DNA of 64,000 nt from positions 56,781,328 to 56,845,327 of the forward strand of contig CM038464.1 of the NCBI GenBank assembly GCA_021464415.1, in the 5' to 3' direction. Shown here one piece after another: positions 32,376-62,796 of this stretch; position 1 is the stretch's first letter; each line of letters opens with the position of its first letter. Position numbers and translations under genes: made by a program. The DNA is from Lonicera japonica (taxonomy: Eukaryota; Streptophyta; Magnoliopsida; Dipsacales; Caprifoliaceae). The notes below the pieces were generated by a model. It did no database searches. It was not told the origin of the DNA and worked only from the letters and a program-made list of their open reading frames with translations.

Positions 32376-32505
32376 CACAAACCATTGGAAGAACTACGTA
32401 AACTTGAGCCCCAACTAATCTTTTGTTTTTGAAAAATCAAACGGGGGACGTAGGCAACCTAAGAAGTAACTTCAGGCCCGGTTTACTTATTATAATAAAA
32501 TTATT
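32376..32505 (+). other. post-pol conserved block of element C
   Basis: GAACTACGTAAACTTGAGCC, then GGGGGACGTAGGCAACCTAAG and AGGCCCGGTTTA. The same series follows the integrase stop in B (61104-61185) and in A (reverse strand, 51970-51870). It places the element boundary logic of C and shows that the pol deletion ended just before this block. Confidence 0.75.
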
Positions 32506-34340: not shown

Positions 34341-34368
34341 GACTGACCCCGGATGTAAGTAGGTTGGA

Positions 34369-37344: not shown

Positions 37345-37370
37345 AGCACGGAGCTTGAGTCAAGAGATTT

Positions 37371-42525: not shown

Positions 42526-44203
42526 TGTGAGAACCCGGGTCCTCGACGCCCGGGGGTCCTCTTGAGCGGCGATTCCGTTGTTGCTTTGAAAATCGATTTT
42601 GAAAAGAATAAGAGTCGCCAGTTTGTTTTACTAAACAAACAAAAAGGTTTGTGTAAAAGAGACGTATTTATGGATGTGAGAATCCGCAAATGAGACCCCC
42701 GGGTCTCGCTCCCGTTTGTTGGGCGTCTGGAACGTCGGAACGGATCCCGTCGTTCCATTTGCTTCGATCGGTGTGTTGATAATTCATATCGTGTGTCCCT
42801 CTATCCTATTTCTAGATGCAGGAGGGTTCGTTCAGAGTCGCTAGTACGTTTTACGAGAAAACATACAAAATGGTTGTGTAAGAGGAAATGCTACATATAA
42901 GCCTTTCTTTACACATTTGTCTGCGAAACCAGGATTCTATAGGGTTCGGAAACTATGTTACGGTTTGGGAAGGTGTTAAGCACCCATTCCTCCCTTTCGG
43001 TCTCTAGTGGTCTTATACGTTTATTTTATGTTGAAAAACTTGGATGCTTTTACTGACAGTCTACTACTTTCCAAGTGAGAAAACCCTAGTTTCTGAGAAA
43101 AGCGGGGAAAGGGATAAAAACCTTTGTGTTCCGAGATCCGATGTTTATTATTGTTGAAAGATGTAAATACAAATAACAGAACCTTTTATTTTGAAAGAGT
43201 GTCCCGTATTATTTCCTCAGATAATGACGGTTTTCTCGTGTTGTGATTACTTTTGTAAAAGTTCGGATTTTGTATCGGGACTACTTTAATATGGAACTAG
43301 AACTCTTTGAGGGGAGTTTTATCAGACACGTCTTAGTCTATAAAAAAGACAGGACATGTTGATTTTAATTCTTAGATAAGTCTTATCAGTCCGGGTTTTA
43401 AAAACAGAATTTTATCCGGATGATAATGTACTTATTCTTCTGATTTTGAAGATGGTTTTATCAGGGTCTTTTGTTTTAAAAACAGTAGACTACTTTGTAA
43501 CTTGGCAATAAGTTTATTCAAATAAAACGTGGACTGAACAACAGAAGTAAAACAAGTACACAGATATATAATTTAAATACTAAAAGATATTTTTTTAGCT
43601 TCCCGACGAGAATAATAATAAGAAAGAAAATAAGATGCGGCAGAAAGATCTCCGGTGATAATGATCTTTTCCTTCTTCAAATATTTTCGAGAGTTCAATT
43701 CCAGAGACGGGACACGTCGAGTGTCGTGAATAGATTCGATAATTCCTCGGAAATAAGATTACAATAGAAAATACTTGACGAAAGACTGGAAAATCAGATA
43801 TAAGCCAATAATTCTTCGAATCCCAGTTACTGTCCTTGAACCCTTGGGGTGTTGGCCTATTTATAGTGCGGGGAAGAGTATGTCGCGCGACACTTCCCCA
43901 AAAGGGGCATATGTCGGCGACAAACGGCTGAAGTGATGTCTCTGACAGACTGATTTGTCAGAGAGTGGATGGTCGGGGTCAGAGGGGTTTGTCGTGCGAC
44001 ATAGGAGTGATTGTCGCGCGACATACCAGTGATTGTCGCGTGACACACTGATATGTCGTGCGACAATCCCACTTAAAAATAGGTCTGTTGGCCAACAAAC
44101 CCTTTCGGGGTAGTTTCGGGTGCTTGGTTGGATCCCGGACTCCAAAAACAGTAGTTCTCGTAGGTCGTTAGGGTTCTTGCGGGGGTCACGGATCGGGGTG
44201 TCT
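42526..44203 (-). mobile_element. 3' LTR of element A
   Basis: 1,678 bp. On the minus strand it begins TGTAGACACCCCGATCC (44203) and ends GGTTCTCACA (42526). The upstream purine-rich GAGAGGGTC (44204-44213) is the likely polypurine tract. It shares its body with the LTRs at 29490-30528 and 37371-38911. The left flank is Copia gag; the matching target duplication lies outside the window. Confidence 0.82.
43857..44065 (-). promoter_or_regulatory. LTR promoter of A: TATA box plus six palindromes
   Basis: The minus-strand TATA box CTATAAATAGG lies at 43857-43866. Upstream are six TGTCGCGCGACA-type palindromes at 43881-43892, 43912-43922 (short), 43990-44001, 44012-44023, 44034-44045 and 44054-44065. 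Variation is confined mostly to the central CGCG (CGTG, GG). The same motif precedes both antisense genes of A. Confidence 0.8.
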
Positions 44204-44388
44204 ACAGACCCTCTCGAATCAAGTTTCTTGCTTGCAAGGAATTGAGGCGACTGGAAGAGACCGTAATCCATGGCTCCCGCAAGAACTCTAAGGAAGTGTG
44301 TGTATGCAAAAAGTGTTCGTGAGTGCCTCCGGAGAGGGCTTTTGTTACCTCATTGCCTCTTTCGAGGACTTTTATTTTGCTCCACTTG

Positions 44389-44950
44389 CCTCAGATGGGA
44401 GGACTACCATTGCTCCACTAGCCTCAGATCGGAGGACTACCATTGCTGCACTGTGCCTCTCGGGGGGGGGGGGCTTTCGATCTTCTCGCCTCAGGTGGGA
44501 GGACTACCATTGCTACACTGTGCCTCTCTGGGAGGGCTTTTGATCTTCTCGCCTCGGGTGGGAGGACTACCATTGCTACACTGTGCCTCTCTGGGAGGGC
44601 TTTTGATCTTCTCGCCTCGGGTGGGAGGACTACCATTGCTACACTGTGCCTCTCTGGGAGGGTGCCTCTCTGGGATGACTACCATTGCTACACTTTTGAT
44701 CTTTTGATTCTCGCCTCGGGTGGGAGGACTACCATTGCTACACTGTGCCTCTCTGGGAGGGCTTTTGATCTTCTCGCCTCAGGTGGGAGGACTACCATTG
44801 CTACATTGTGCCTCTCTGGAGGGCTTTCGATCTTCTCGCCTCAGGTGGGAGGACTACCATTGCTCCACTGTGCCTCTCTGGGAGGGCTTCGCCTCAGGTG
44901 GGAGGACTACCATTGCTACACTGTGCCTCTCTGGGAGGGCTTTTGATCTA
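44389..44950. repeat. 63-bp tandem repeat array
   Basis: About nine units of GCCTCAGGTGGGAGGACTAC + CATTGCTACACTGTGCCTCT + CTGGGAGGGCTTTTGATCTT, some truncated or fused. 63 bp is 21 codons, so several frames stay open on both strands without being genes. Tandem repeats in the region just upstream of the 3' LTR are known for Tat-lineage elements such as Ogre. From 44951 to 45918 there is pyrimidine-rich sequence with more decayed 'gcctctgg.gagggct' units and no gene. Confidence 0.88.
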
Positions 44951-45918
44951 TAAAAAGGAAAGGAAAATTGCCTCTGGGAGGGCTTTTTGTGAGTATTTTT
45001 GCCTCTGGAGAGGGCTTGTGCTTGTGTTTTTGTTTTTGGTGAGGGTTTTGTGTTTGTGATTTGCCTCTGGCGAGGGCTTGTTTTGCACTCTGGTGAATTT
45101 GATGCCTCTCTTAGACTGCTAGAGTGAGAGAGAGAATTTTGTGCGAGGGTGAAAGGAGCTCCTCGGGGTTTAATCTTTATCTGGATGTCCGTTTTCCTGT
45201 ATCTTTCTGAATTTTACTCTCATGTTTTCCTCGAGTGAAGATACTTCTCTCAGAAGGCAGTTTTCGGAATTTTTTTTGCTCTCCGCAGAGTGATGATTCA
45301 AGGTTTTCCAAACCAACTCTTCTGTATCGTGCTGAAAAGAAAATTTGTTTGAAAGTTCAATCTCGGATCTCTGTTTTCTCCTTAGTTTTCTCTTTTGGTG
45401 GGCCCACATCGTTTTCTGTTTTTCGATGTCCTTATTTCTCCCTCTTTTGGGAAAGACTTTTCCTGGCCTTCTCTGTTTTTTATCAGGAGTCTTTTTATCC
45501 CTTTGTCGTGATCAGGAGCCTTACTCACCCAAAACGAAGCCCTGAGCCGGTTTTGGCCTAGCTGTCACTTTTGGTGTGGCTCTCCCTGTCACTCTGTATT
45601 TTTGTTTCTCTCGCTCGCTCTGGGCGCTCATGCGGGCTCTTTCTCTTTTCTACTCTTTCAATTTTTTCTTATTCTCGTCTTATCTCGATATTTTTCTCTT
45701 TCTCATTGATGGTCTTGGTCCTTCTTTGGGAGATCAGAGACTACTTTAACCGTTGTTTTTCGTCCTCGCTTTTTCGGAGAGATGATTTGGAAGTTCTCCT
45801 CGAATTTTCATCCTGGGTGCGCGGTTTTTTAGCAATTTTTTGAAAACTGCTTCTCTGAAGTACCCCTGTAGGAGATAAAATGAGACAAAGATAAAAAAAA
45901 TCAGGGGAGGGGTAAATG

Positions 45919-46002
45919 TGTCGCGCAACACTTCGGTGTCGGGGATCTTTGTCGCGCGACAATGTGCCCATTTGTCGTGCGACAAACAGCTTCACTATAT
46001 AA
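45919..46002 (+). promoter_or_regulatory. promoter of antisense PMD gene (A)
   Basis: Three motif copies, TGTCGCGCAACA (45919-45930), TTGTCGCGCGACAA (45949-45962) and TTGTCGTGCGACAA (45972-45985), are followed by TATATAA at 45996-46002. The ATG is 139 bp further on at 46141. This matches the layout in the LTR promoter and in the DUF7745 promoter of the same element. Confidence 0.78.
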
Positions 46003-46140
46003 GTCCCTTGCTGAGCTCATTCCACCTCATTATCTCCTTTCTCTTTCTCTCTCTAGCTCTCCTTCTCCCTTCTCTCAAGCGCGGAAGCCCTGCCACTTTC
46101 TGACTTTTTCGATTTTTCTCCCTACTCTCTATATACACAG

Positions 46141-49100
46141 ATGGATCCCGCACAGCCGAATCGACTTGAGGGTGACCAGAAGGAGGTCACTTTTACCGAC
46201 GCTCAGGGTGTTCTCCGTTGCAGTCCTCATCATGACGACTGGGAGGACCTTGATTGGTATGGTGAGGACGGGGTGGACCGCGGTCGGGCGGTGGTCTACC
46301 GAGACGTTACCCGGGCTGCTCCGATTTTGGATGTTCCGTGGCTTTTGATGGAGCCTGTTTCTCACGAGATCCGTCGACGGTCTCTAGTATGTCTTTTTTG
46401 AAGTTCCTTTGTTTTGTGTATTTATTCGTTCTCTTATTCCTATTGTTTCCTGCATGTATTTTAAACAATGTTAGTATGCATGTCTGCCTAGAAATAACGT
46501 CCGATTTAGTGAACACATACTTTTACTTGTGATACCTCTTTGGATTTGGAAAATTACATAATTTACCCCTATAACCCTATAACTCTCATAATTACACCAA
46601 AGTACCCTCAGGTTTTGAAAATTACATAATTTACCCTTATAGCCCTATAATTCTCATAATTACACCAAAGTACCCTCAGGTTTTAAAAATTACATAATTT
46701 ACCCCTATAGCCCTATATCTCTCATAATTACACCAAAGTACCCTCAGATTTTGGAAATTACATAATTTACCCCTATAGCCCTATATCTCTCATAATTGCA
46801 CCAAAGTACCCTCAGGTTTCGGAAAATTTTATAATTTACCCTTATAGCCCTATAACTCTCATAATTACACCAAAGTACCCTCAGGTTTTGGAAAATTTAC
46901 ATAATTTACCCCTATAACCTTATATCTCTCATAATTACACCAAAGTACCCTCAGGTTTGGAAAATTACATAATTTACCCTTATAACCCTATATCTCTCAT
47001 AATTACACCAAAGTACCCTTAGATTTGGAAAATTACATAATTTTACCCCTATAACCCTATATCTTTCATAATTACACCAAAGTACCCTCAAGTTTTGGAA
47101 ATTACATAATTTACCCCTATAACCCTATATCTCTCATAATTACACCAAAGTACCCTCAGGTTTTGGAAAATCACATAATTTACCCTTATAGCCCTATAAC
47201 TCTCATAATTACACCAAAGTACCCTCAGGTTTTGAAAATTACATAATTTACCCCTATAGCCCTATAACTCTCATAATTACACCAAAGTACCCTCAGGTTT
47301 TGGAAATTTAAACCCTTATAGCCCTTACATCATAATTACACCAAAGTACCCTCAAGTTTTGGAAAATTACATAATTTACCCTTATAGCCCTATAACTCTC
47401 ATAATTACACCAGTAACCCTATATTGATTATATACATCACTCTTGTTGTCTACAGTGGGTTAGCCGAGGTTGGGGTTCTCCCAACACTATTTCTCCGGAG
47501 TGGCGATAGGCACCGGCCCCTGTCCAGGAGTTGCTCCTTGCGACTCCATTCGGTCCTCTTTTCGATGCCCTCCCGGAGCGGGTATCTAGGGCAGCTGTGT
47601 TGGTGTCGGCTCTGGCCTGCCACTGGTGGGACACCACTCATACCTTCCACTGGAGTTGGGGGGAGATGACGATGACCCCCCTTGACTTATTTGCTTTGAC
47701 CGGGATTCTTTCAGGGGGAGCCCCCGTACATATCGATGTCTCCTTGCGCCTGACAGCAGAGGGCATTGTTGGTGCACTTGGATGGTTCCCAGAGCGACGA
47801 AGTTCTGGAGATACGATTTCCTGGGCGGTATTGGTTACGTGGCTAGCCACAAAGAGAGCCCGGTTAGTTGCTTCAGGGGTGCCGATGACCCGTCAGGAGG
47901 CGTACCAGTATGCTCACGCCCTTCTTCTACTAACGCTCCAAGATTTGTTCGAGGCACGTGGGGGGGACACGGCCCATCTCTGGTGGTTGCCTTATTTTCA
48001 GGACTTTAGCATCATGTTCGACTACGACTGGGGCGGCTTTATCCTTGCCTTCCTTTATGACGCCATGGACCAGGTTTTCCGTCATTTGGCCCTGAACCTC
48101 AAGGGCTTTTTTTTGCTATGGGAGGTACATACTTTTGTTCCCTTATCTTTACTTTAGTCCCTTACATATTATCTGTTGATTGTTGCTGACATTCTTTATG
48201 TCCCTCTTCAGAGTTGGTTCGTGGCGTATACCCGTCTGGGTCGCGCCCAGGTGGATCTCCTCGTTGAGAACGAGGACCAGTTTCCCTTTCTCCGCCGATT
48301 CATCGCGGGAAACTACAGGGCTCCCTATGTATACCAGACTCAGGAGACCGGAGCTGCTGCCGTCCATGACCTGCTGGAGGAGCAGGTAAATATCTTAGTA
48401 TTCTTTCTTTTCAAGTAGATAAATAGTAAATGGAATACAAATAACTGAAATAAAATCTTGTTTTTGTTTAGATTGAGTGGGCCCCCTGGGGTGATCTGGG
48501 TCTCCACTTTGGATACGGCCAAGCTCTGACTGCCTCGAGGACCAGGCGGCTTATCCGGGATGAGTACGGCCTTTATTTCTATTTGGGCGAGAGAGTCATT
48601 CGCCAGCACACACCGGCCCAGTGGCCCTGAGTTCCCCTATTTTCGTCGGTTCTGATGAGGCAGACGGGTGAGATCGGCCCGGTGACGGTGCAGGCGTTGG
48701 TTGATGGGCTCGGTTTTTAGACGTTTACTGAGGAGGGGGACTATACTGCCTTCGTTGCCCGTTACTTGATGAGGGAGCCGAAGGGGACTCGGGGACGGGT
48801 CTTCTACGAGAGGTACCGGGCGTTGGGAGGTGATCCCAACTATATACGAGGGCAGACTCACTTGTCCAGGATGGTCCCCGGTCATCTGCCGCCTGTTCCT
48901 GATCAGAGGGACAACCTTTTGGACTCCGACGATGATGACCCTGAGGGAGAGAGGGGTATCCCTGCTGGCGCTGAGGGAGGCAATGATAGGCCCGAGGGAG
49001 GTGATGATAGACCCGAGGGCGGTGAGGGAGGTGGGACGGCGGCTGTTCCAGAGCAGCCTCCTCAGATAACGCCTAGAGAGGAGCAGCCTGCTGAGGATTT

Positions 49101-50058
49101 TGAGTTCCCCACCGGTCCGTTGGTATCCCCGGGGGTAGTTTTTGATGCTACGGAGGCTGTTGAGAGAGTGGGAGCAGCCTTTTCTGAGCGATCCTGGAGC
49201 CTGCGGACCTTGGGGTCGACTATGAGCAATTTGGACGGACCCCTCCTGCTGCTGCGACTACTCCTTCTAGCGGGGTTCTGCCTCTGAGAGCGATGACCGC
49301 TGTGGATCCTCCGGGTGTTCGTACTTACGCTACACTGACTCTGCTTCCGTCGACTGTTATGGGCCCTCCAGCCCGATCTCCGGGTCTCGGGGGTTCTTCT
49401 TCCCGGCCTCCTCTGTTCCCGATCCGCGAGGAGGGTGGGTCCACTTTTGCTGTTATACCGGAGGGTTCGTCTGTTCATCCGATAGACCTGTCGCCTTTTC
49501 CCCAGGATATCTCTTATGTGGGTGTCGGTCTACGTCGGTATACGGTGCCCGAGTATCCTCTTCCTGAGGATACGTTCGACTACTTGGGTGGTCGCCCTGA
49601 TGATGAGGTACATGCTTCCTTCCATATCCTTTCATATTCATATTTATTTATTTTAACTGTGCTGATTCTCTTATCTTATGTCTTTCACAGCGGGTGAGTG
49701 TACGGGTGACAGATCTGAGGGCTTGGCATGCCCAGTATCTCTACAGCTGAAACCTGCTCCAATACGTTGGTCGAGACCCCACGATATACATGCGCGATTA
49801 CCAGAGGGCGATCGACGTATCTCTTCGGGTGGACGACCCTCTGTCCTCTTCTCGTGCTCGGACCGAGTCTCGAAGGAGCAGCAGCCTGACCTTCGGCATT
49901 CTCGGTCCTCGGTGATTCGCCCTACAGCACCGGTCCAGTCAACAGGGCCTTCTCAGGCAGCAGTTCCCTCTCATCCGGATGTCCCAGCGGTCGATCCTAC
50001 TCCGGAGGAGGGTTCGGGTGATAGTGGGAGCGTGTCGAAGCGCGCCCGGATAGATTAG
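46141..50058 (+). pseudogene. plant mobile domain (PMD/MAIN-like) gene carried antisense in element A
   Basis: Five exons with good splice sites: 46141-46386, 47456-48124, 48212-48385, 48472-49607 and 49691-50058. Exon 2 holds the PMD signature, HWWDTTHTFHWSWGEMTMTP followed by LDLFALTGI. Exon 3 has WFVAYTRLGRAQVDLLVEN. Exon 4 is acidic and Gly/Pro-rich, and the C-terminus is basic. PMD proteins in plants include MAIN/MAIL factors linked to transposon silencing, and many PMD genes are transposon-borne. Breaks: stops at 47507 (TAG), 48628 (TGA), 48718 (TAG) and 49748 (TGA), a one-base loss near 49196, and another frame change in exon 5. It is therefore dead as a protein gene, although splice sites and promoter survive. 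Intron 1 holds a satellite-like array. Confidence 0.78.
46553..47415. repeat. ~69-bp tandem repeat inside PMD intron 1
   Basis: About 12 copies of a unit containing GGAAAATTACATAATTTACC, CCTATAACCCTATATCTCTC and ATAATTACACCAAAGTACCC. Copies differ by scattered substitutions. It fills most of intron 1 and is removed by splicing from the antisense transcript, but it stays in the element's genomic RNA. Confidence 0.88.
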
Positions 50059-50382
50059 CTTTTCTTTTCCTGTATTTAGTTAGTTCGGACAGATATGTAG
50101 TTTTTATTTCTAGATATTTGATATAGTTTCTTGAAAACTGTTCTTTTATTTTTTTATAAAAATCTTTATTTGTGTCTGATGATGCGTTTTTTATTCCTTA
50201 TCTGTGATGAAAAGGTAATAATTACGTGAATTGATAATTTTAGGAGCCATACCTTGTAATGTGGCGATACTTAGGGTTCCTGCAAAAGAACAGAGTGAGC
50301 ACAGTGCATGCAGAAGTGATTCTTTTGGCAAGAATGACTCTTATGTGTAAGAACAGCAAAAATAGGGTGACACAAAAGGGGA

Positions 50383-50464
50383 TTGTCGCGCGACAATCCC
50401 TCCTAGATGTGGGTTTGTCGCGCGACAAACAGGCACATGACCCTCTTCTTTTTTGCTATAAATA
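50383..50464 (+). promoter_or_regulatory. promoter of antisense DUF7745 gene (A)
   Basis: Two perfect TTGTCGCGCGACAA palindromes (50383-50396 and 50415-50428) precede TATAAATA at 50457-50464. The ATG is at 50502. The 50059-50382 gap between the PMD gene and this promoter shows nothing else. Confidence 0.8.
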
Positions 50465-50501
50465 CACCCATCTTCCTTCCTTCATCCATACACCTTCCAA
50501 A

Positions 50502-51741
50502 ATGTCTTCTTATCGCACAAATTCTGATTTTTCTTATGTTGAAGCTCGAGATACCCTGATATCTTCTGAGAATGGTTTGAACTTTAGTGTTTTTAGCCCC
50601 TTAGCGGGCTAGTGCCATCATCCTATAGATTTTTCCTTTTTGTTGGGCGCTTTGTATTTCTGGAGCCCTGCGGATCATCTTTTTCGTTTCGGGCTAGATG
50701 AGCTCTGCCCGACTTATGAAGAGTTCTCCTGGTTGTTGCGTTCTGATGTTTGTCTTCCGATGGCTGTTCCCATAGAAAAGATTGGTCCTCGAGACATGCT
50801 GATTGCCCTGTTGGCCATTCCCCAAGCGGCCTGTGATGGTTTCATTATCGACGGGCTTCTTGATCTCCACAAAATAGTGAGGTTCTTCCATCGTTATGAA
50901 GAGAGAGCCTCTTATAGCGTGTGGCATACTGCGGCGGCCTTGATCTGTCTTGTTTCTGATATGCTACTGGTGACGGGCTCTTCCCGTGTTGACCCAACTA
51001 TTCTGAGTCTGATTTATCATGCTAGGAATGGGGAGTCCATAGTGCCTATCGTTCTTACAGAGACTCTGAATGGCCTAGATGATCTTCAAAGGGGAGCCTC
51101 ACCCTTTTTCAAGGGAAGCCCTCGTTTGTTATACATGTGGCTGCTGGAGCGTTTTCGATCAGTGGGTTTCAACGGGGTGCGGCTTGACAACCCGACGCAC
51201 TTTTTCCGTCGTCCCCTCTTTGGTGCTTTGACCATGTCTTCCTCTAATTGGACGATGTGGTTTTCGGAGAACTTTTGGGCTATCCGGTGGAACATTTCTT
51301 GGTGGAAGCTGAGGGTGATGGTGCTTAGTACAGGGGGTCAGAACTATGTTCGGCTCCGCGGGCTCTGGTTTACCTCCTTTTATCTCCCAGGACGTCTTCT
51401 TCGGCAGTTCAATGTTCCTCAGGACATTCCCCTTGGTCTGAACAACTTCTCCTTTGAGTCTAAATTTGTGACCCCGCATGTTTCTTTATCGGTAGAGAGG
51501 ATGTGGCGTGCTCGACTGACTCGTCAGTTCAACTATGCCCATTTCGGTATTACCAGGCCCCTCTGGGCTGACATCATCTGTTCTCGTTGGGGGGTCTTTG
51601 GAAGGGGAGCTAATTGATGATCCCTTCAAAATGGAATGGTTCCGATTTATGGATTCTGAGCCTTCAAAAGAGAACATTGTCTTTGCGTACCAGATTTTGG
51701 ATGAGGCTCGAATTGATTTGGCTATTGAGGACCCTGCTTAG
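50502..51741 (+). pseudogene. DUF7745-type gene carried antisense in element A
   Basis: Single exon. The landmarks FWSPADHLFRFGLDELCPTY then EEFSWLLRSD, and LTETLNGLDDL, are those of the plant DUF7745 family (pattern FWDPxxxxFxxGxxDLxPTxEEYxxL). Function is unknown; members are widespread in plant genomes and often repeat-associated. Two lesions are visible: TAG at 50610-50612 (codon 37, where B's copy has Trp) and a one-base length change at the G run near 51590. Apart from these it aligns without gaps to B's copy. The stop at 51739 lies 234 bp from the end of pol on the other strand, tail to tail. Confidence 0.78.
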
Positions 51742-51975
51742 CCAACCCCCAGGGATTAGGTTTTTTTGTATGTTGTATCTCCTTTGTAACTTTCAGTGTT
51801 CTGAACCACCTTAATAATATATGAAAGAAGGTTTATGGGAAATAAATTTCTTTACAATGTTTTAAACAGGGCCTGAAGTCACTTCTCAGGTTGCCTACAT
51901 TCCCCCCTTTTTTATTTTCTAAAAACACAATTTCGAGTTGGGGCTCAGGTTTACGTAGTTCTTATCTATACATAT

Positions 51976-53520: not shown

Positions 53521-54327
53521 TGTGAACACCCCAATCCACGACTCTCGTGCGAATACTGATTTTCTTTAAGCATCCTGCATTTATCATGAATCATCATACA
53601 TGTAGAAAGACTGATAGGAAAGACTCTAATTTTGGACGCGTTGGGAGTCTAAGATAACCCTTGGCACCTCCTAACCGCACCCCCTAGCCGCACGCCCAAC
53701 CGTACGGCTACCTGCCAGCCGTACGGCTGGCACACCCCTGTCGCACGCCCCAGCCGCACCCCATGCGGCTACCCCTGCGGTTGGCCTCTTTTGGAGCGTT
53801 TTTGGCGCAAATGTTGCTATAAATAGGACCCTTGGGATCCCATTTTGGGATCATCAACATTGAATAGTATTTTTGGTAAGTAGGAGCTTTGTCAAAGTCT
53901 CTAGAAAGTCATTTTTAGAGAAATTCTGAGAGAGAAGGCTAGTGAGAGAGAAGGCTAGTGAGAGAAAGCTTTAGAGAGAGAAAGCTCTAGAGAGAGAAAG
54001 CTCTAGAGAGAGAAGGAAGTCAAGGCAAAGTCCTCCTATCTTCTTCAAAGCGCAACAGGTATAACTTTCTACCAAATCCTTAATTTCAGTACTGCATTTA
54101 ATTTCAATTTTAATACAGAAAATTAGATAACTTGCAAAGAAGTTCATTGCTTTCAAAACAAATCCTTTCTAAGTTTTACAAGAAATCTAAAACCTGTTTT
54201 GACACGTTTTCAAAACAAACAAAAATACAAAAACAGTTTCCAAAAGAATGGAACTACGAGACTCTGATTTCATTCTACGAATGAATACGTAGGCGCTCGC
54301 AAAGCTCCGTTACCGAATCCCGAAGAT
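53521..54327 (+). mobile_element. 5' LTR and leader of element B
   Basis: The LTR starts at 53521. Its 3' boundary cannot be fixed without the other LTR, but it must lie before 54328. It contains (AGAGAGAAGGCT/AGAGAGAAAGCTCT) short repeats at 53930-54015. CAACAG|GTATAA near 54053-54065 could be a splice donor or the start of the leader. The block GAACTACGAGACTCTGATTT...ACGTAGGCGC at 54251-54297 recurs after pol. No primer-binding site was assigned. Confidence 0.65.
53671..53825 (+). promoter_or_regulatory. LTR promoter of B: palindrome array plus TATA
   Basis: CCAACCGTACGGCTA (53696-53710), the perfect palindrome CCAGCCGTACGGCTGG (53715-53730), and half-type copies (TAACCGCAC at 53672, CAGCCGCAC at 53751, TGCGGCTA and TGCGGTTGG up to about 53783) precede TATAAATA at 53818-53825. 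This motif is unrelated to the TGTCGCGCGACA motif of A, but it is placed the same way and recurs before B's antisense DUF7745 gene. Confidence 0.78.
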
Positions 54328-57300
54328 ATGTATCGAATGTTGATGAACTTGAACCAAAGCATGACCATGTTATTAAGTGACAATAAAAATACTCGTGCCA
54401 AGTTGGACGAGTTGGCTAAAGGGCGCATGACAGAATCACCAAGAGAAACTCCGGTTATTCTACCACCACCACCGCCACTCTCAGTTCATACCGAAGTACC
54501 ACCGCCGTATGAACAGTTGAACCAACCCAAACCCATGCCTGATCCGGTCGGCAATTGGTTACAACAAGACCTGACCAATCAAGCCCCTCCACAGATGCAA
54601 CCGATCCATGAACCATACCACGATCCGTATTATGACCCAATGAGAAGGCCCATGAGTATCCAAGGGGAGGGCCCCACGCCAATAGAAACTCACCGGGGGG
54701 ATAGAGACTTGTCTGAGCTTAAGGAGCAGTTGAAAGCACTTACCCAAAAAGTAGCTGAGAGTTCGAACGATTTGACCCAGATGCAAAGCTACAACTTATA
54801 CCCTGAGGCTCGTTATCCCGTGGGTTTTAAGATGCCCTCCATCCCAAAATTTACAGGCACTACACCACCAGAACTCCATCTGAAATCTTATGTCCGTTCA
54901 ATGAGAATTTATGATCTCGGTGAGGCTGAATTAGCCAATTCCTTTCACCTCACTTTGGCAGGACCGGCCCAGAGTTGGTTTTTGAACCTTGAAAAGCATC
55001 GTGTTAGATCATGGTCCGCCATTGTCCAAGAGTTTGTGTCACAGTACAAAACTAATGAGGAACTTAAAGTTACAAGGAAACATCTAGAGATGGCTAAGCA
55101 GAAGGAGAATGAGAGTATTAGTGAGTTTGTAACAAGATGGAGTGAACTGGCTGCCCAAATGGTGGAGCGCCTAGATGAAGAGGAACAACTCGGAATGATT
55201 GTGAAGAATTTGAAACCAGATATTCAGACCCAAATGGGACACCAGTTCTTTGGCAGGTTCAAAGCCCTACTCCACGTAGGTAACGGAATTGAGGAGGAAT
55301 TAGCCAAGCAGGCTGAAATCAAAAAGTCCGCTTCACAGTACAAGAAGACTTCCACGTCTGCCATCAATCAAGTTACGTCTTCTGGGTCCTACGGTCGGGG
55401 GTATTCCGGCAACCCCTTTGGTCAAAACTCTGTGAAAAACATTGGGGATTTGGGATATCGTAACAACAACAACAGTAATCTCAGGACATTTGATCAGAAT
55501 CGCTCACGAGATAGACATTTTTCGCAATTACCGGGACCGTTGGGAAAGGTTTTCGAACAACTGAAAGAAGCCGGGATTATGTATCCCATGAATCCGAGGC
55601 CATTACCACAACAGATACCACCTCATTGGAACATGAATGAACATTGCGAATATCACCAAGGTTTCGGACACACTACCAATAGTTGTATGGCCCTGCGGCA
55701 TACTATCCAGAACTTAATCGATAGCAAAAGAATTCCTGATCCGTCAGCCCCGAATGTCGCAAGGAATCCCCTTCCTAATCATCGGATCAATGCTATCGAG
55801 GAGGATTCAGATTTACCAGATCCTGTACTCTTGATTAAACCCGCCGGGAATATGGAAAATGCTGAAGTTTGGAAATTCAGTTGTCCAAAGCCTTCCCCCA
55901 CAGTCATTCAATATACTCCACCGAGGTCCCAGAAATCAGTTGAAGAAGTCGAGGATGAAACATTATTGGGGTTATCCGTTGATGAAACATGCACCATGCA
56001 GTCACAAGAGATGGTTAGCCCAAAAGTTATGGGCTGGATGAAACAAATGCAGTTCATGCCAGGTTTTGGGCTCGGTAAACAGAATCAAGGGATCGCCCAC
56101 TTTCCACAGTTTAAAGGCAACCCGAGGCGACAAGGGCTCGGGTATAACCAAGGAAAAACAATAAAAAAGGACACCCATCCAAGAAAGAATTGCTCACAGA
56201 TAAACATGATCGCCTTTGACTGGAATACAGTTTCGCAAGTCAATGAGGGGCCACCTTCAACTCCAGTTGAAACACCTAAAGGGGCAAGTGATCCAGTCGC
56301 GACATGGGTCCAACAATTGACCCGTTCTGGGAGAGTGTACCAACCGCCAAAAACCAAGCAACCTATTGATGTCGCTCTTCCCAACGAACATGCAAAAAAC
56401 CCGGAAGAAGGGCGTGTTGTTGAACAGTTAAAGAAAACACAAGCCCAAATTTCAATCTGGGGACTCCTGGTAGCATGCAAGCCACATCGTATGGCACTAA
56501 TGAGAATGTTAGATGAATCGGTTGTTCCTCTTGAAGCCACCCCAAATGAGTTAACAGCGATGATCGCTTCAATGGGGGTACAAAAACAAGTTCTTGGGTT
56601 TTCTGATGAAGATTTATCACCACTGGGTCGGGATCATAACCAAGCTCTACATATCACCGTTGTTGCTTATGGAATGTCTATACCGTACGTGCTTGTGGAT
56701 AACGGTTCTACAATTAACGTATGCCCGTTGAAAACTGCTGTTCGTTTGGGTATTGATTTAACTGCCATGGAAGAATCACCAGTCACAGTGCGAGCATACG
56801 ACAATACCAAGCGGGAGGTATTAGGTTCCGTCATGCTGAGTATGCAAATAGGACCGGCTTCATTCACCACTGAGTTTCAAGTCATAGATATCCCTTCGAG
56901 CTTTAATTTGTTATTAGGACGAGTTTGGTTGCATGAGGTTGGCGCACTGCCTTCTTCCCTTCATCAAAAAATGAAAATACCCTTCAACGGGGATATCATC
57001 ATCATCAAGGGAGATCCTGAAAGGGCAATAGTCCCAAAAAACTCGCCAGTATTGGGAATCGGAAGCCAAGATGTCCAACTCGGGGGATTTTCGTATGAGC
57101 CAAAGGTGCAAACTCTTACCACGCAGATTGTGAATTATCTGCCCCCTGATGATATGTCGACCATGAATACGCAAGTGATAAAGATGATGAGGAAAATGGA
57201 ATTTTTACCAGGGATTGGTTTGGGAAAATATCAAGCCGGCATTGCCCAAATGATCGAACCATTCCAACAACCGAGTCCTCTTGCTGGGTTGGGATATGTG

Positions 57301-60300
57301 GGAGATGTTAGCCGAATGAAAAGTGCCGTATTTGCCGATAGTTCATTAAACGGATGGTTTATAAAAGAGGGTGAAGACTTTCCTTACTGCGGGTTTCAGG
57401 AACCATGGGTAAATGAAGAGAGGAAAAGACAACCGGGATTAGAAATTTTCTTTGAAGGAGACTTATATATCAGTGAAGGATTTACTCACACCTTCTCATC
57501 TCGGTTAAAGATTACCCGGCCACCTGTCGAGCCACTGGAAGAGGAAGATATGCTGGGTAATATGTTTGAGGTCATGGCAATTGAGGAAGATTACCTTGGG
57601 GATCCTGTGCATCTTATACGCCCTATCGAAGGAACGAAGAAGCAGAGAGAGAGAAATATTGATAGAAATGTACGAAATTTAGAATGTATGCTATCTGTGC
57701 AAAGTGATGTTTCTATCAATAAAATTACCAATCTTTTCCCTTACTTTGATTCTTGTGATGTTGAGATTATGAATGAAAATTTGAATGATGAGCAGCGAAT
57801 ACAACCCATTGAAGGAGACACGGTCACAATAAATCTGGGAACAACCGATGATATAAAAGAAATAAAAATTGGGGCCGAATTAAGCCATGATGAAAAAACA
57901 GACTTAGAAAATTTGTTGAAAGAGTTTGTTACTGTTTTCGCTTGGTCATATGCTGATATGCCGGGTTTAGATGCCACTATTGTGATGCATGAAATACACA
58001 CTAAACCCGAATGCAAACCTGTCAAGCAAAAGTTAAGAAAACTAGTACCTGAATGGTCACTCAAGGTGAAGGAAGAAGTCACAAAGCAATTGGATGTCGG
58101 ATTCATACGGGTTGTTGAATACCCTACTTGGTTGGCCAATATAGTGCCGGTGCCAAAAGCCAATGGCAAAGTACGGGTTTGTGTTGATTATCGCAATTTA
58201 AATGCTGCATGTCCAAAAGATGATTTTCCACTGCCAAACATTGATCTCATTGTCGACAACACTGCAAATCATGCTTTAAAATCATTCGTCGATGGATTTG
58301 CTGGGTATAATCAGATCAAAATGCATCCTGATCATCAGGAAAAGACAGCCTTTATCACACCATGGGGTACTTATTGTTACACCGTCATGCCATTTGGGTT
58401 GAAAAATGCCGGGGCCACATATCAGAGAGCCGCAACTACTCTATTTCATGATCTGATTCATAAGGAAGTAGAAGTGTATGTCGACGACATGATCATCAAA
58501 TCATTAGACCGGGCAAGTCATGTGGAAACTCTTCGTATTTTCTTTGAACGGCTTATGCAATTTCAGATGCGTTTGAATCCTCAGAAATGTGTATTCGGGG
58601 TCACCAAAGGCAAGATGCTGGGGTATATAGTCAGCAGAAAGGGAATCGAGGTTGATCCGGCAAAGGTTAAGGCTATTCAAGAAATGCCAATCCCTAAAAC
58701 TGAAAGGGAAATTCGGGGTTTCCTCGGGAGGTTACAGTTCATCAGCAGATTTATTTCACAATTGACTCGAACATGTGAACCAATTTTTAAGCTACTCCAA
58801 AAGAGTTCGGATGGGCAGTGGAATGAGCAATGCCAGGAAGCGTTCAATAAGATCAAGCAATATTTGTCTAATCCGCCAGTCTTAGCACCTCCCCAAGTAG
58901 GCATTCCATTGATACTATACATGTCGGTCAATGACTCCTCAGTTGGAGCAATGTTGGCACAGCATTTGTTGAAAACAAGAATTGAGCAGGCAATATATTA
59001 CCTCAGTAAAAAGCTTTCTCTGGGAGAACAAAATTATACAGCTTTAGAGAAATCATGTGCTGCGTTAGTTTGGGCTACCCAGAAGTTGCGACATTATATG
59101 TTGATATTTTTCGTGATCTTGATCTCTCGTCTAGATCCCTTGCGGTACTTGTTCGAAAAGCCGATGTTGAATAATCGAATGGCTAAATGGATGTTCCTGC
59201 TTTCAGAATTCGACATTTCTTATGTCACTCAAAAAGCCGTCAAAGGGCAAGTCATAGCAGATCACTTAGCAGGCAATCCAATCATTGATGCCGAGCTACA
59301 GGACTTCGAATTTCCCGATGAAAGTATCATGGAGATTACCAAAGACGATGAATGGAAAATGTATTTTGATGGGGCTTGTAATCGGAATGGGAACGGAATT
59401 GGGATCCTGTTAATTTCGCCAGATCAGACACATGCACCTATGTCTTTTCGATTAGAATTTCCCTGTACCAACAATATCGCGGAATACGAAGCTTGTATTG
59501 TCGGGTTAGAAATTGCTTTGCAGAAAGGGGTTCGTAAAATTCAGGTGTTTGGGGATTCCGCTCTCATTATTCATCAGATCTTGAAAAAATGGAAGATCAA
59601 AGAAGAAAAACTTGTGCCCTTCTTAACCCAACTCGAAGAAACTTCTGAGAAATTTGAGTGCATTGAATTCTTCTACATCCCGAGAACACAGAACAATTTT
59701 GCTGATGCCTTAGCTACTCTGGCCTCGATGATTGAAATTCCGGGGGAGAAAGAAGAAATTCAGATTCAGATTCAAAGGCGAATAAATCCGGTATTTTGCC
59801 TATCACTCGATGTTGAACGTGGAAATAAGATCGATCAGAAGGTTTGGTACTACGATATCTGGAAATTACTCAAGCATAATGAATACCCATCACATGCTGA
59901 CAAAACCACTCGGGTCACGCTTCGCCGCCTCGCATCCCGGTTTATCATTTGTGCCGGAAAACTATACCGAAGAAATGATGACGGTATACACCTTCAATGC
60001 CTCGATGAAGAAAAGTCCCGAGCAATGATGGAACAAATCCACAGTGGAGAGTGTGGCCCACATATGAGCGGTCATACATTGGCACGAAAGATAGTTCGTC
60101 AAGGGTATTACTGGTTAACGATGCAAAAAGATTGTTTTGAATACGTCAAAGGGTGTCACCAATGTCAAATATACGCCAAGGCACAGAAGCTCCCTCCAAA
60201 AGAATTATACCCTATGACATCTCCTTGGCCGTTTTCCATCTGGGGTATTGACATAATCGGTAAGATCTCGCCAAAAGGAAGTAATGGGCATGAGTACATC

Positions 60301-61089
60301 TTAGTAGCTATCGACTATTTCACCAAATGGGTTGAGGCCGAGTCCTACAAGGAGTTGAATGCCCGAAAGGTGGCACGATTCATCCGACACAACATCATAT
60401 GCCGATACAGGGTACCGCATGAGATAATATCCGATAATGGTACGCATTTTGAAGGCGCAGCCAACGAAATCATGGAAGAATACGGAATCAGACGCCACAA
60501 ATCCTCACCATACCGCCCACAAACTAATGGGGCCGTAGAAGCTGCTAATAAGAATTTGAAGAATATCATTAGCAAAATGGTTAAATCCGGTAGAGATTGG
60601 CCCAAAAAGCTCCCGTACGCACTTTGGGGATATCGAACTACTGAGAGAGTTTCTACGGGATCAACGCCTTTTTCACTTACATATGGCATGGAAGCGGTTT
60701 TACCAGTGGAAACGGAAATACCTTCTTTACGGGTTATCCTGGAAAATCAAGTCACTGAGAATGATTGGGTAAAGGCTCGGTATGAAGAGTTGGCAATGAT
60801 TGATGAAAACCGATTGAGGGCTTCATATCAACATCAAGGATATCAAAAACGTGTTGCCAAAGCCTTTAATAAAAAAATCCGAGACAGAAGCATCATAGTT
60901 GGGGACTTAGTCCTCAAAGAAATTCGTGAACCAGCCCGAGACCCAAGAGGAAAATTCTCGCCAAAGTGGACAGGCCCTTACATTGTTACTAAAATCCTAT
61001 CCGGGGGTGCCGTTCTCCTTACCGACATTGATGGCCAAGAGTTAAACTTACCAGTCAACCTCGACCGATTGAAGAAATACTATCAGTAA
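54328..61089 (+). CDS. gag-pol polyprotein of Tat-lineage Ty3/gypsy element B
   Basis: One open frame of 2,253 codons with no lesions. In order: proline-rich N-terminus, retrotransposon Gag (about 200-290), zinc-knuckle-like CEYHQGFGHTTNSC (about 438), two G-patch-like segments (about 568-610 and 956-995), and an aspartic protease with active-site DNGS (Asp791, where DTG/DSG is usual). Then reverse transcriptase with YVDD at 1384-1387, the RT-linked RNase H and connection, and a second archaeal-type RNase H (Asp1681, Glu1719, Asp1743), a Tat-lineage hallmark. Last are the HHCC zinc region, integrase core D1975, D2036, E2071 (35 residues between the last two) and the terminal GPY-type KWTGPYIV. 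It acts in cytoplasmic particles and at nuclear integration. Gag and Pol are fused in frame, so their ratio must be set by processing or splicing. Probably still coding-competent. Confidence 0.93.
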   Translation: MYRMLMNLNQSMTMLLSDNKNTRAKLDELAKGRMTESPRETPVILPPPPPLSVHTEVPPPYEQLNQPKPMPDPVGNWLQQDLTNQAPPQMQPIHEPYHDPYYDPMRRPMSIQGEGPTPIETHRGDRDLSELKEQLKALTQKVAESSNDLTQMQSYNLYPEARYPVGFKMPSIPKFTGTTPPELHLKSYVRSMRIYDLGEAELANSFHLTLAGPAQSWFLNLEKHRVRSWSAIVQEFVSQYKTNEELKVTRKHLEMAKQKENESISEFVTRWSELAAQMVERLDEEEQLGMIVKNLKPDIQTQMGHQFFGRFKALLHVGNGIEEELAKQAEIKKSASQYKKTSTSAINQVTSSGSYGRGYSGNPFGQNSVKNIGDLGYRNNNNSNLRTFDQNRSRDRHFSQLPGPLGKVFEQLKEAGIMYPMNPRPLPQQIPPHWNMNEHCEYHQGFGHTTNSCMALRHTIQNLIDSKRIPDPSAPNVARNPLPNHRINAIEEDSDLPDPVLLIKPAGNMENAEVWKFSCPKPSPTVIQYTPPRSQKSVEEVEDETLLGLSVDETCTMQSQEMVSPKVMGWMKQMQFMPGFGLGKQNQGIAHFPQFKGNPRRQGLGYNQGKTIKKDTHPRKNCSQINMIAFDWNTVSQVNEGPPSTPVETPKGASDPVATWVQQLTRSGRVYQPPKTKQPIDVALPNEHAKNPEEGRVVEQLKKTQAQISIWGLLVACKPHRMALMRMLDESVVPLEATPNELTAMIASMGVQKQVLGFSDEDLSPLGRDHNQALHITVVAYGMSIPYVLVDNGSTINVCPLKTAVRLGIDLTAMEESPVTVRAYDNTKREVLGSVMLSMQIGPASFTTEFQVIDIPSSFNLLLGRVWLHEVGALPSSLHQKMKIPFNGDIIIIKGDPERAIVPKNSPVLGIGSQDVQLGGFSYEPKVQTLTTQIVNYLPPDDMSTMNTQVIKMMRKMEFLPGIGLGKYQAGIAQMIEPFQQPSPLAGLGYVGDVSRMKSAVFADSSLNGWFIKEGEDFPYCGFQEPWVNEERKRQPGLEIFFEGDLYISEGFTHTFSSRLKITRPPVEPLEEEDMLGNMFEVMAIEEDYLGDPVHLIRPIEGTKKQRERNIDRNVRNLECMLSVQSDVSINKITNLFPYFDSCDVEIMNENLNDEQRIQPIEGDTVTINLGTTDDIKEIKIGAELSHDEKTDLENLLKEFVTVFAWSYADMPGLDATIVMHEIHTKPECKPVKQKLRKLVPEWSLKVKEEVTKQLDVGFIRVVEYPTWLANIVPVPKANGKVRVCVDYRNLNAACPKDDFPLPNIDLIVDNTANHALKSFVDGFAGYNQIKMHPDHQEKTAFITPWGTYCYTVMPFGLKNAGATYQRAATTLFHDLIHKEVEVYVDDMIIKSLDRASHVETLRIFFERLMQFQMRLNPQKCVFGVTKGKMLGYIVSRKGIEVDPAKVKAIQEMPIPKTEREIRGFLGRLQFISRFISQLTRTCEPIFKLLQKSSDGQWNEQCQEAFNKIKQYLSNPPVLAPPQVGIPLILYMSVNDSSVGAMLAQHLLKTRIEQAIYYLSKKLSLGEQNYTALEKSCAALVWATQKLRHYMLIFFVILISRLDPLRYLFEKPMLNNRMAKWMFLLSEFDISYVTQKAVKGQVIADHLAGNPIIDAELQDFEFPDESIMEITKDDEWKMYFDGACNRNGNGIGILLISPDQTHAPMSFRLEFPCTNNIAEYEACIVGLEIALQKGVRKIQVFGDSALIIHQILKKWKIKEEKLVPFLTQLEETSEKFECIEFFYIPRTQNNFADALATLASMIEIPGEKEEIQIQIQRRINPVFCLSLDVERGNKIDQKVWYYDIWKLLKHNEYPSHADKTTRVTLRRLASRFIICAGKLYRRNDDGIHLQCLDEEKSRAMMEQIHSGECGPHMSGHTLARKIVRQGYYWLTMQKDCFEYVKGCHQCQIYAKAQKLPPKELYPMTSPWPFSIWGIDIIGKISPKGSNGHEYILVAIDYFTKWVEAESYKELNARKVARFIRHNIICRYRVPHEIISDNGTHFEGAANEIMEEYGIRRHKSSPYRPQTNGAVEAANKNLKNIISKMVKSGRDWPKKLPYALWGYRTTERVSTGSTPFSLTYGMEAVLPVETEIPSLRVILENQVTENDWVKARYEELAMIDENRLRASYQHQGYQKRVAKAFNKKIRDRSIIVGDLVLKEIREPARDPRGKFSPKWTGPYIVTKILSGGAVLLTDIDGQELNLPVNLDRLKKYYQ

Positions 61090-61364
61090 AAAATTGTATC
61101 CATGAACTACGAAGACCTGAGCCCCGAAAAAAAAAAAAAAAAAAAAGGGGGAAACGTAGGCAACCTGAATATCAGGCCCGGTCTATTCATTGTAATAATA
61201 TTCATTCATTTGGACGCAAGAAGAAAGGCAGAAAGAGATTTTCCATACATCAAAAAGTTCTTTCGTACAAGATAACCTACATCAGTTCTTACATACTTTC
61301 CCTATATATTTTACCTACCTAATACCAGAAAGCTTTCATAAAGAAGCTGCCTACCACACCTAAC
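61090..61364 (+). other. post-pol block of B with long purine tract
   Basis: GAACTACGAAGACCTGAGCC (61104-61123), 20 adenines (61127-61146), five guanines, then ACGTAGGCAACCTG and CAGGCCCGGT. The same blocks lie after pol in A (reverse strand) and C, and a related GAACTACG..CGTAGGC pair precedes gag in B. A20G5 resembles a polypurine tract but lies at least 2.9 kb from any possible 3' LTR. This is the gap between convergent gag-pol and the DUF7745 gene. Confidence 0.65.
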
Positions 61365-62601
61365 CTAACCGTCATCAGCAGAATATAAGATCCTCTCTCG
61401 ATCCATGGTCTGATACGAAGCAAGCACTGTCTCATCAGTCACCGGCGAATCTGCAAACCGAAACCACCTCATCATCATAGGCTCATGCTCAATGGTCTGC
61501 CGAACTCGACTCCAAATATGCAGCACGATATCAGAACGGGTCACCTGGGTAATGCCAACCTCTCCTCCATGAAATCGCCGAACAAAGCGGGTAGACCAAA
61601 GACCTCGTAGGGTCGTCTCTAGTCTCGGGGTAATAGGAAGAGCGATCGAAGAAAAGTCTCTCAGCGGAAGGGGTATACTCAGGGGAACACCGAACTGCCT
61701 CGTCAGCCGTCCGGGGATGTAGAATGATGTCTCTCTCAAACCACGAAACCGAAGATAGTTCTGCCCACCCATACTCATGATCATGGTCCTCATACGCCAC
61801 CATGGAACCTCCCAACGAATCGAAGAAGAGGACTCAGAAAACCGAACAGCCCAATCATATGATGACAGACGATGAATCTGGGCGTAATCAGGACGCTGGA
61901 AGAAGTGCCGAGAATCCCAGGGAAGCCGAGTCTCCAGATACCGAAACCTCTCAGTAACCCACATGTACAGTAGATATGGGCTACCTCGAAAATGACTAAG
62001 TCGAGACTGAACCACGGCATCCAAACCATTCAGTGTCTCCGCCAGTAAGATGGGAGTCACCAAATGGCCGCGTCTAGCCTCAGATACAACTCGGATAATC
62101 AGAGGGTCTACCAGAATAGCATCATCGGTAACCAAGAGCATCTGAGAAAAAGCAAAAAATCATACAAGCAGAAGTCCGACCTGAATAATAAGCCGGGTCG
62201 TCGCCATGATGAAGGAAAAAGTCTGCCAAGTGACGCAGATGGAGTCGACCGTCGACTATCATAGGCCGGCACTCACTCTCCCGCAGACCCAGAAACTCCG
62301 CCAGCATAACACGAGGACTCCTAGCATCTCGCAAGGAGGCCAGTGGCCATAAAACATCCTGCCGCATCAATAGTGTGAACTCCTCAATCGTCGGACACAA
62401 CTCGTCTAAACCGATGTGGAAACAGTGGTCCTCAGGATCCCAGAACTCAGCAATACCAAGCAAAAAAGAAAAATTGATATCATGAGAACACCAGCGATGA
62501 AGGTGGCTCAGATCGCCCCAGTTGAGACCATAGTCGGCCTCAGCCATAGACACGAAATCAGACAAAAGGGAGAAAGAAGCGTGGGTATGAAAGGTAGACA
62601 T
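61365..62601 (-). pseudogene. DUF7745-type gene carried antisense in element B (one frameshift)
   Basis: Single exon on the minus strand from ATG at 62601 to TAG at 61367-61365. It contains FWDPEDHCFHIGLDELCPTI followed by EEFTLLMRQD, LAETLNGLD and a C-terminal WFRFADSPVTDE, matching A's copy along the whole length without gaps. The only break is a two-base loss (62143-62146 area), where A reads GATATG and B reads GATG. TATA and a palindrome array lie upstream. It faces gag-pol tail to tail, 275 bp away. Molecular function unknown. A single small lesion in an otherwise clean frame suggests very recent loss. Confidence 0.78.
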
Positions 62602-62673
62602 GGTAATAGAGAAAGAAGAGGCTATAGGGTGAATAGTGACTTTGATGATGGAAAAAAGGACAAATTCGCGCTC

Positions 62674-62796
62674 TATTTATAGTATAACTGCACATGCCAA
62701 CCGCACGGTTGGGCCCCAACCGTACGACTGGCTGGCTAACCGTGCGGCTGGCTCCCAACCGTACGGCTACCCCGTGCGGGTGGGGCGTGCGGTTGG
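62674..62796 (-). promoter_or_regulatory. promoter of antisense DUF7745 gene (B)
   Basis: Minus-strand TATA (CTATAAATA, 62682-62674) with upstream CCAACCGCACGGTTGG (62697-62712), CCAACCGTACGACTGG (62716-62731), TAACCGTGCGGCTGG (62737-62751), CCAACCGTACGGCTA (62755-62769) and two partial copies up to 62796. It is the same motif family as in B's LTR promoter and differs from the motif used in A. The ATG is at 62601. Confidence 0.8.

Follow-up and report, generated by a model that had tools for sequence, protein, structure and literature searches.

The closest precedents for the promoter arrays described here are, by analogy, the palindromic repeats of Sireviruses and the VANC/VANDAL motifs. Sireviruses are Ty1/copia elements with env as the extra gene; many CpG palindromes stand right before their LTR TATA box and more lie 5' of the extra gene, the symmetry and a CGG-CCG core are kept while the flanks diverge, and the motif is described as similar over distant elements and species (PMC2829016). 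VANDALs are DNA transposons with short family-specific motifs that are dense in non-coding DNA and rare in relatives, evolve by repeat gain and loss and differ among related families; the VANC21 motif is non-palindromic and also found in introns, and binding and demethylation are reported from experiments (PMC5735166, PMC10398659). The Tat lineage of Ty3/gypsy elements (Ogre/Retand type) is defined by the placement of a second RNase H (PMC6317226). Antisense genes, for example gene23 of Grande and TRP28 of Retand, lie after pol and before the 3' LTR in such elements, and 57% of Ogre elements are reported to have a PMD in their extra ORFs; Grande gene23 has a known promoter of its own, a regulatory role has been proposed for antisense extra genes of this kind, and no promoter palindromes shared with the LTR are described in the available text of these reports (PMC7264820, PMC11963269, PMC6317226). 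PMD genes are carried by Gypsy elements across flowering plants and have common ancestry with the host silencing genes MAIN and MAIL1, the function of the domain being described as still to be established (PMC5418596). The Arabidopsis PMD-C proteins MAIN and MAIL1 are tied to the expression of genes sharing the DOWN promoter motif, with direct binding left open by the authors (PMC7156037).

The window analysed here is a stretch of 64,000 nucleotides from Lonicera japonica, with a family A copy split by an element of the sister family B and a second A-type copy, A2. Its features are as follows.

~29485-38500 (+), A2, whole second A-type copy
29485..29701 (+), A2 5' LTR array, 7 sites with at most 4 mismatches; TATA from 29716
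37508..37727 (+), A2 3' LTR array, 7 sites with at most 4 mismatches; TATA from 37742
43858-43865 (-), family A 3' LTR TATA, array upstream; LTR start ~44206 on the minus strand
43881..44066 (-), array in the family A 3' LTR, 5 sites with at most 2 mismatches
45918..45985 (+), promoter array of the family A antisense PMD gene, 3 sites; TATA 45996-46003 (+)
46142..50059 (+), family A PMD gene, several exons with borders placed by eye; core 47510-48157, Pfam PF10536, E 2.8e-19
50383..50428 (+), promoter array of the family A antisense DUF7745 gene, 2 sites spaced by 32 bp; TATA 50457-50464 (+)
50502..51740 (+), DUF7745-type gene of family A, PMD-like and broken in the window copy
52315..53520 (-), family A pol (second RNase H end, integrase), split by element B
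53671..53785 (+), array in the family B 5' LTR, made up of degenerate B sites and an A-type half-site TGTCGCACG; TATA 53818-53825 (+)
54268..61089 (+), family B gag-pol, single open frame
61365..62676 (-), antisense DUF7745 gene of family B, with two overlapping frames in the window copy
62697..62796 (-), promoter array of the family B DUF7745 gene, with six CGYRCG cores; TATA 62674-62681 (-)
63270..64000 (-), family B PMD gene, 3' part, running on past the window to ~L005:2540
L005:2647-2830, outside the window, family B PMD promoter, B array at L005:2683-2800

The 5' LTR of the family B copy starts at ~53521, and the end of this LTR and the PBS are missing from the window copy. Its frame runs through gag, two G-patch stretches, protease, RT, RNase H, a second RNase H (RVT_3) and integrase, with pol matches to RT, RT_RNaseH, RVT_3 (589-707) and Integrase_H2C2 (803-858). 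The second, archaeal-type RNase H lies between RNase H and integrase as in the Tat lineage, and the integrase follows RT and RNase H, which is the Ty3/gypsy order and not that of the Ty1/copia Sireviruses. Extra ORFs with PMD matches, an Ogre-type feature, are present in both A and B and are antisense by their coordinates; in contrast to the Tat elements cited, two PMD-like genes stand in tandem. Identity between A and B is 72% in the integrase part, 45% in the PMD core and 45% in DUF7745. The family A DUF7745-type gene was assigned by this last figure, its Pfam DUF7745 and PMD scores lying under the curated cut-offs. Other family B copies have DUF7745 as open 411-aa frames, and the family A PMD has a basic C-terminus, KRAR.

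A first-pass annotation of this DNA had listed five promoter arrays, all of which were found in the window at the places it gave. It had put them just upstream of the TATA box, and at all five promoters a TATA box on the right strand follows 10-32 bp past the array. Palindrome arrays before the LTR TATA box and 5' of an extra gene recall the Sireviruses, whereas the extra genes here are antisense PMD and DUF7745 genes and the core is CGYRCG, not CGG-CCG. The array in the family B LTR is present, but its sites are more degenerate than the CCAACCGTACGGTTGG ascribed to them. The same scheme predicted an array before the family B PMD gene, which lies outside the window, and one was found there. 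That all visible promoters are marked proved true of the A type but not of each copy, because the largely lost DUF7745 gene of A2 has no array in front; the rule therefore applies at the level of the type.

The arrays are specific in sequence. Up to 2 mismatches being allowed, TGTCGCGCGACA gave 19 matches in the window against a mean of 0.54 and a maximum of 3 in shuffles, and CCAACCGTACGGTTGG with up to 3 mismatches gave 6 against 0.08. Motif A or B sites within arrays made up 12 of the 18 near-perfect 14-mer palindromes with at least two CpGs in the window. The 886-Mb host genome has 8135 copies of TTGTCGCGCGACAA per strand and none of its reversed control, and 1799 copies of CAACCGTACGGTTG and two of its reversed control. 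Both motifs have the CG-YR-CG core and differ in their flanks, and the central YR step is kept in 141/141 strictly matched B sites and in 154/156 A sites. As a sign of DNA bending this step is weak, because transitions by themselves preserve YR. Neighbouring A sites are spaced by 20-23 bp (51 cases) or 30-34 bp (69 cases), approximately two and three helical turns, and also by 80-81 bp; this last spacing and those of B sites (19-20, 13 and 26 bp) do not fit whole turns. A literature search with three motif strings matched 151 papers; among the matches listed, 15 in number, only CCGTACGG is present, and the titles look unrelated.

A check on genome copies had been proposed with the annotation, and copies were sampled by U5, exon 1 or protein, the motif not being used as a criterion. 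Arrays were present in 20/20 A-type LTRs picked by U5 (6-8 sites each, at most 3 mismatches), 19/19 A-type PMD copies picked by exon 1 (2-4 sites, at most 4 mismatches), 20/20 A-type DUF7745 copies picked by protein, 20/20 B-type LTRs picked by U5 (2-9 sites) and, as scored by eye, 30/30 B-type DUF7745 loci with PF24924. Thirty-six perfect A sites, fetched among the first 50 listed, fell in 23 loci, and all 23 are element promoters: LTR (12 arrays), PMD (8) and DUF7745 (5). A TATA box in the correct orientation was matched in 22 of them, with L047 as the exception. Different motifs in the same promoter use, as the annotation had it, are thus seen both in the window and across the genome, and sister families within one genome differ in concert at all three promoters, unlike the Sirevirus motif. 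The A-type half-site is retained in 19/20 B LTRs and the B-type half-site in 0/20 A LTRs. With the palindromes masked, the likeness between arrays of different promoters was at shuffle level in 8 of 10 comparisons, the exceptions being two marginal A pairs of LTR with DUF7745 (p 0.09 and 0.04). Each family therefore has a single motif at LTR, PMD and DUF7745 and little else common to its arrays, which is the regulon layout first proposed; because one motif recurs at three promoters with otherwise dissimilar arrays, the pattern resembles the regulon of a trans-acting factor.

A wider survey with a conserved stretch between pol and DUF7745 gave 878 places on one strand and 844 on the other, and 20 loci from the first 100 listed, mostly rare variants and chosen deliberately, were scored by eye. 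B-type sites were seen in 10/20 (L076-L084 and L095; those of L084 only degenerate, those of L083 in an LTR), A-type sites in 1/20 (L093), and neither type by eye in 9/20 (L085-L092 and L094).

The two antisense gene products were assessed as candidate binders. DUF7745 is under purifying selection (dN/dS 0.07-0.39, 48 pairs). Pfam matches above cut-off in the candidate proteins were to PMD and DUF7745, and the same search recognised no DNA-binding domain in either. Among solved structures DUF7745 had no relative and the PMD core two chance-level matches (E 0.22 and 0.71); viral contigs gave no confirmed relatives of the A DUF7745, and the papers available for search made no mention of DUF7745. 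An AlphaFold2 model of DUF7745 from an alignment of 10 natural copies reached a mean pLDDT of 38 and was discarded as unusable. Sixteen other PMD loci were taken from 162 reported matches, and in 16/16 the 1.1 kb preceding the PMD match held no array, although the promoter may sit farther upstream; on controls, the palindrome-repeat script was positive for 7/7 array-bearing stretches and for 0/10 window stretches. These loci oppose a simple rule that any PMD gene brings palindromes, and because of them DUF7745 ranks no lower than PMD as a candidate binder.

Two further families were each represented by one decayed-looking copy. Family I, whose LTR is over 960 bp 78% like that of B, lacks B sites as well as any recognised PMD or DUF7745, and fits a pattern of no antisense genes and no arrays. 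Family F, with an LTR 87% like that of B, has B sites in its LTR, and the 8 kb examined held no clear PMD or DUF7745 and one DUF7745 match at E 0.015; it does not fit this pattern unless it is non-autonomous.

To the reading that the palindromes are putative sites of a family-specific factor, probably an antisense-gene product, that co-regulates sense and antisense promoters, we give an even chance. The palindromes would be dimer-type sites for a sequence-specific DNA-binding factor, which would work in trans at its own family's promoters, namely the sense LTR, the antisense PMD and the antisense DUF7745. Most likely this factor would be encoded by one of the antisense genes or by both, their products being two PMD-like proteins, and the self-regulatory loop would keep the family's own copies transcribable. 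In favour of this reading are the placement and sequence specificity of the sites, their recurrence through the genome, the use of one site in otherwise dissimilar promoters, the concerted difference between sister families and the purifying selection on DUF7745. Protein binding and an element-encoded binder are inferred, as is an effect by activation or anti-silencing in preference to repression. Counted against the reading are the B sites of family F, the array-free PMD loci, the absence of a recognised DNA-binding domain and of a relative of known structure, the B and 80-81 bp A spacings, and a conservation of motif columns only slightly above that of the flanks.

Captured host transcription factor sites could instead drive the element promoters, each family using different host factors, which is the less probable but best surviving alternative. 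Binding of host factors to upstream LTR elements is common in plants, and the CGTGCG in some variants presumably resembles brassinosteroid-factor sites. Sirevirus palindromic repeats are near-identical in very distant elements and species and resemble stress-factor sites, which would suit a host factor (PMC2829016). However, the sampled perfect sites sit in elements at 23/23 loci, and the flanks differ between sister families while the use at three promoters is identical; a host factor need not change, so the motif change between sisters counts against it.

A reading of the arrays as tandem repeats, spread through slippage or template switching and with a promoter position that is historical and without present function, is improbable. 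Array length does change fast, since the two LTRs of the B copy have one and three 66-bp units and 32-bp units expand in A DUF7745 promoters. Conservation between copies is also little higher in motif columns than in flanks (PMD 0.916 vs 0.895; DUF7745 0.964 vs 0.899), and CpGs are kept at 155/177 inside the motif vs 31/38 outside, and at 123/126 vs 92/101, so that selection on single sites is only weakly indicated. Yet the palindrome is constant while units and spacers vary among the three promoters, the site is retained in copies with different repeat units, and each of the two motifs is consistent across the promoters of its family.

Least probable of all is a role as RNA hairpins or cruciforms feeding small-RNA silencing or affecting reverse transcription, as was reportedly suggested earlier for Sirevirus LTR palindromes: tandem perfect dyads could pair mutually, and the arrays lie in U3 and antisense promoter DNA, both probably part of the genomic RNA, but the dyads have no loop, a CA or TG centre breaks perfect symmetry in 68/141 strictly matched B sites, exact sequence beyond symmetry is common to promoters and copies, and structure does not need a position right before the TATA box at three promoters.

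For a putative family-specific factor encoded by the element, VANC is a parallel, with which a short family-specific motif dense in element non-coding DNA is shared. The comparison made in the first-pass annotation is sound as an analogy, with the differences that VANC sites are also intronic and intergenic whereas the sampled sites here are at promoters (PMC5735166), and that the present regulon is proposed from sequence. MAIN and MAIL1 are host genes of another PMD clade, and they are likened here by description, not by motif letters (PMC7156037). More tentatively, and with the odds somewhat against it, Gypsy PMD-superfamily proteins (DUF7745 and/or PMD) may be sequence-specific regulators that have changed their specificity from one sister family to the other in step with the sites at three promoters per element, forming a trans-acting anti-silencing or activation regulon and a retrotransposon counterpart of VANC. 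If true, this would be a first function for Gypsy PMDs, and the regulon would number thousands of sites within a single plant genome.

The arrays provide exact candidate targets, and with two proteins, two motifs, three promoters and two families, the question of cross-binding has a plain answer, yes or no. Binding by an element protein would mean that retrotransposons, like the VANDAL DNA transposons, evolve private control of sense and antisense promoters, and would show how motif and protein change together. The thousands of sites could also spread control sites through the host genome. The arrays resemble docking sites for a private control protein, a directly testable lead on the role of the extra genes.

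The first-pass annotation had claimed one palindrome before three family A promoters (the sense LTR and the antisense PMD and DUF7745 genes) and a second palindrome before two family B promoters, and reading of the sequence confirmed each of these arrays. A scan of the window gave 19 matches to the A palindrome vs 0.54 in shuffles and six to the B palindrome vs 0.08, with TATA boxes about 10-32 bp past the arrays on the correct strand. The scheme of a shared motif also foretold an array before the B PMD gene, which had gone unseen; this array was found in L005, the continuation of the window's B copy past the window end. The features are as follows (window positions unless marked L005).

8751-9347: large inverted repeat, its 277-nt arms 90% complementary and separated by 43 nt
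about 29485-38500, plus strand: A2, a second A-type copy, with arrays in both LTRs and none before its DUF7745 gene remnant
about 43940-43970: second dyad, TCTCTGACA-spacer-TGTCAGAGA, between site groups of the A LTR array
about 29590-29620: near match to this dyad in the A2 LTR
44420-44944: array of tandem units of about 63 bp in the stretch that separates the A PMD promoter from the 3' LTR
46562-47375: presumed first intron of A PMD, with a repeat in eight register copies at mostly 68-bp spacing
53521-64000 and L005:1-6192: the window's B copy, with arrays of unequal length in its LTRs (one vs three 66-bp units), the B array of the 3' LTR, beyond the window, being the longer
54268-57600: gag region of B, with two G-patch stretches
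L005:2647-2654: TATA box of the antisense B PMD gene, with a B-type array immediately upstream

B is inserted in the pol of A with the 5-bp repeat TATAC on both sides, and its 5' LTR lacks the 3' end, the primer site being lost with it. The gag-pol of B is a single frame comprising gag, G-patch, protease, RT, RNase H, a second RNase H and integrase, an arrangement that matches the one described for Ogre/Retand members of the Tat lineage; the same source reports that 57% of Ogre elements have PMD in extra ORFs (PMC6317226). G-patch is described as an RNA-processing domain atypical in LTR elements (PMC9289625). The integrase part of A lies on the minus strand and is followed by the same gene order as in B, both families having two antisense genes between pol and the 3' LTR. 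One of these is PMD (Pfam E-values 2.8e-19 in A and 9.6e-23 in B), with basic C-termini, KRAR in A and KRPR in B, that suggest nuclear import. The second gene of B is DUF7745 (E 2.6e-11, open copy); that of A scores below the cut-off with both models and is classed with DUF7745 by its 45% identity to the B gene. On the same residues the B DUF7745 additionally hits the PMD model, at 7.1e-7 and thus short of Pfam's cut-off, so the pair of antisense genes seem to be related. The A and B DUF7745 copies in the window are broken, but frames of at least 411 residues stay open in other copies. The dN/dS values of DUF7745, 0.07-0.39 (48 pairs: 45 B, 3 A), indicate purifying selection. Families F and I (L172, L173) have an after-pol spacer and B-like LTRs in common. 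Their antisense gene is a different one, apparently decayed, with an exon end that by eye is similar to PMD exon 1.

In the host genome (886 Mb), TTGTCGCGCGACAA occurs at 8135 places and its reversed form at 0, and CAACCGTACGGTTG at 1799 places and its reversed form at 2. The 36 A sites fetched among the first 50 places listed lie in 23 loci, all of them at promoters of the three kinds (25 arrays: 12 LTR, 8 PMD and 5 DUF7745), and a properly placed TATA box was matched at 22, the exception being L047. The complete element L040-L042 carries nine sites per LTR, three before PMD and two before DUF7745.

Copies were also sampled without use of the motif, each sample comprising the closest copies. 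A DUF7745 genes picked by protein had 2-4 sites in 20/20 (of 119 other matches listed), mostly with a 32-bp period, as read from the alignment. A PMD copies picked by exon 1 had 2-4 sites at up to four mismatches in 19/19 (of 39 other matches; one more piece, taken from the wrong side, was left out). LTRs picked by U5 carried arrays in 20/20 for A (of 39 other matches; 131 sites vs 1.8 in shuffles) and in 20/20 for B (113 vs 14.8, at a loose threshold). By eye, arrays preceded B DUF7745, picked by Pfam model, at 30/30 loci (of 118 reported); the printed stretch of L006 stops short of the TATA box, and in L033 the TATA box is altered. A conserved-spacer survey targeting rare variants found sites in 11/20, the rest coming from different families, decayed families or a wrong stretch. 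At other PMD loci, arrays were found in 0/16 within 1.1 kb upstream.

With the palindromes masked, arrays of different promoters within a family were no closer than shuffled sequence in eight of ten comparisons, so the same site has been assembled, or kept, in differing surroundings; two A pairs, LTR with DUF7745, were marginal (p 0.09 and, for the A2 LTR, 0.04). A and B use different motifs at each of the three promoters although the elements are clearly related, with identities of 72% in the integrase part and 45% in both the PMD core and DUF7745. Both motifs have the core CG-YR-CG, its centre being mostly CG in A and TA, TG or CA in B. TGTCGCACG, an A-type half plus core, is kept at recurring places in 19/20 B LTRs (L136-L155), and was found before B DUF7745 at 0/30 loci; the B-type half was found in 0/20 A LTRs. 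The shared core and the A-type half in B LTRs suggest that both motifs descend from one ancestor with altered outer halves, and the TGTCGCACG sites are possibly a relic of that change.

One site at three dissimilar promoters, differing in concert between sister families, would be most simply caused by a family-specific dimeric protein that reads the palindrome. Binding of the arrays by host factors is still a serious rival, because similar arrays occur in Sireviruses, both at the LTR and 5' of env, and their core is common to distant species (PMC2829016). Several results weigh against the regulatory reading, among them the missing arrays at the 16 other PMD loci and before the A2 DUF7745 remnant. 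Motif columns are only slightly above their flanks in conservation, CpG retention is alike within and outside the motif, and neither the 80-81 bp A spacing nor the B spacings fit whole helical turns. Family F has arrays but no clear antisense genes, and a domain search of the candidate proteins found no DNA-binding domain.

A natural source of the putative family-specific reader would be the antisense genes, because DUF7745 is selected, their A-B divergence exceeds that of the integrase part and arrays stand at their own promoters, which would close a loop. Grande antisense gene23 is reported to have a nuclear product and its own promoter (PMC7264820), and regulatory roles have been proposed for Retand antisense proteins (PMC11963269). 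Ikeda et al. describe PMD function as undetermined and speculate on anti-silencing use by MULEs (PMC5418596).

Sireviruses are already known to carry palindromes upstream of both their LTR TATA boxes and an extra gene (PMC2829016), and VANC/VANDAL to have family-specific motifs (PMC5735166, PMC10398659). Listings from the open-licence literature showed no prior description of the A and B arrays. As far as searched, A and B are new in their lineage, in having a pair of antisense PMD-like genes that stand under the same site, and in a motif that switches from one sister family to the other.
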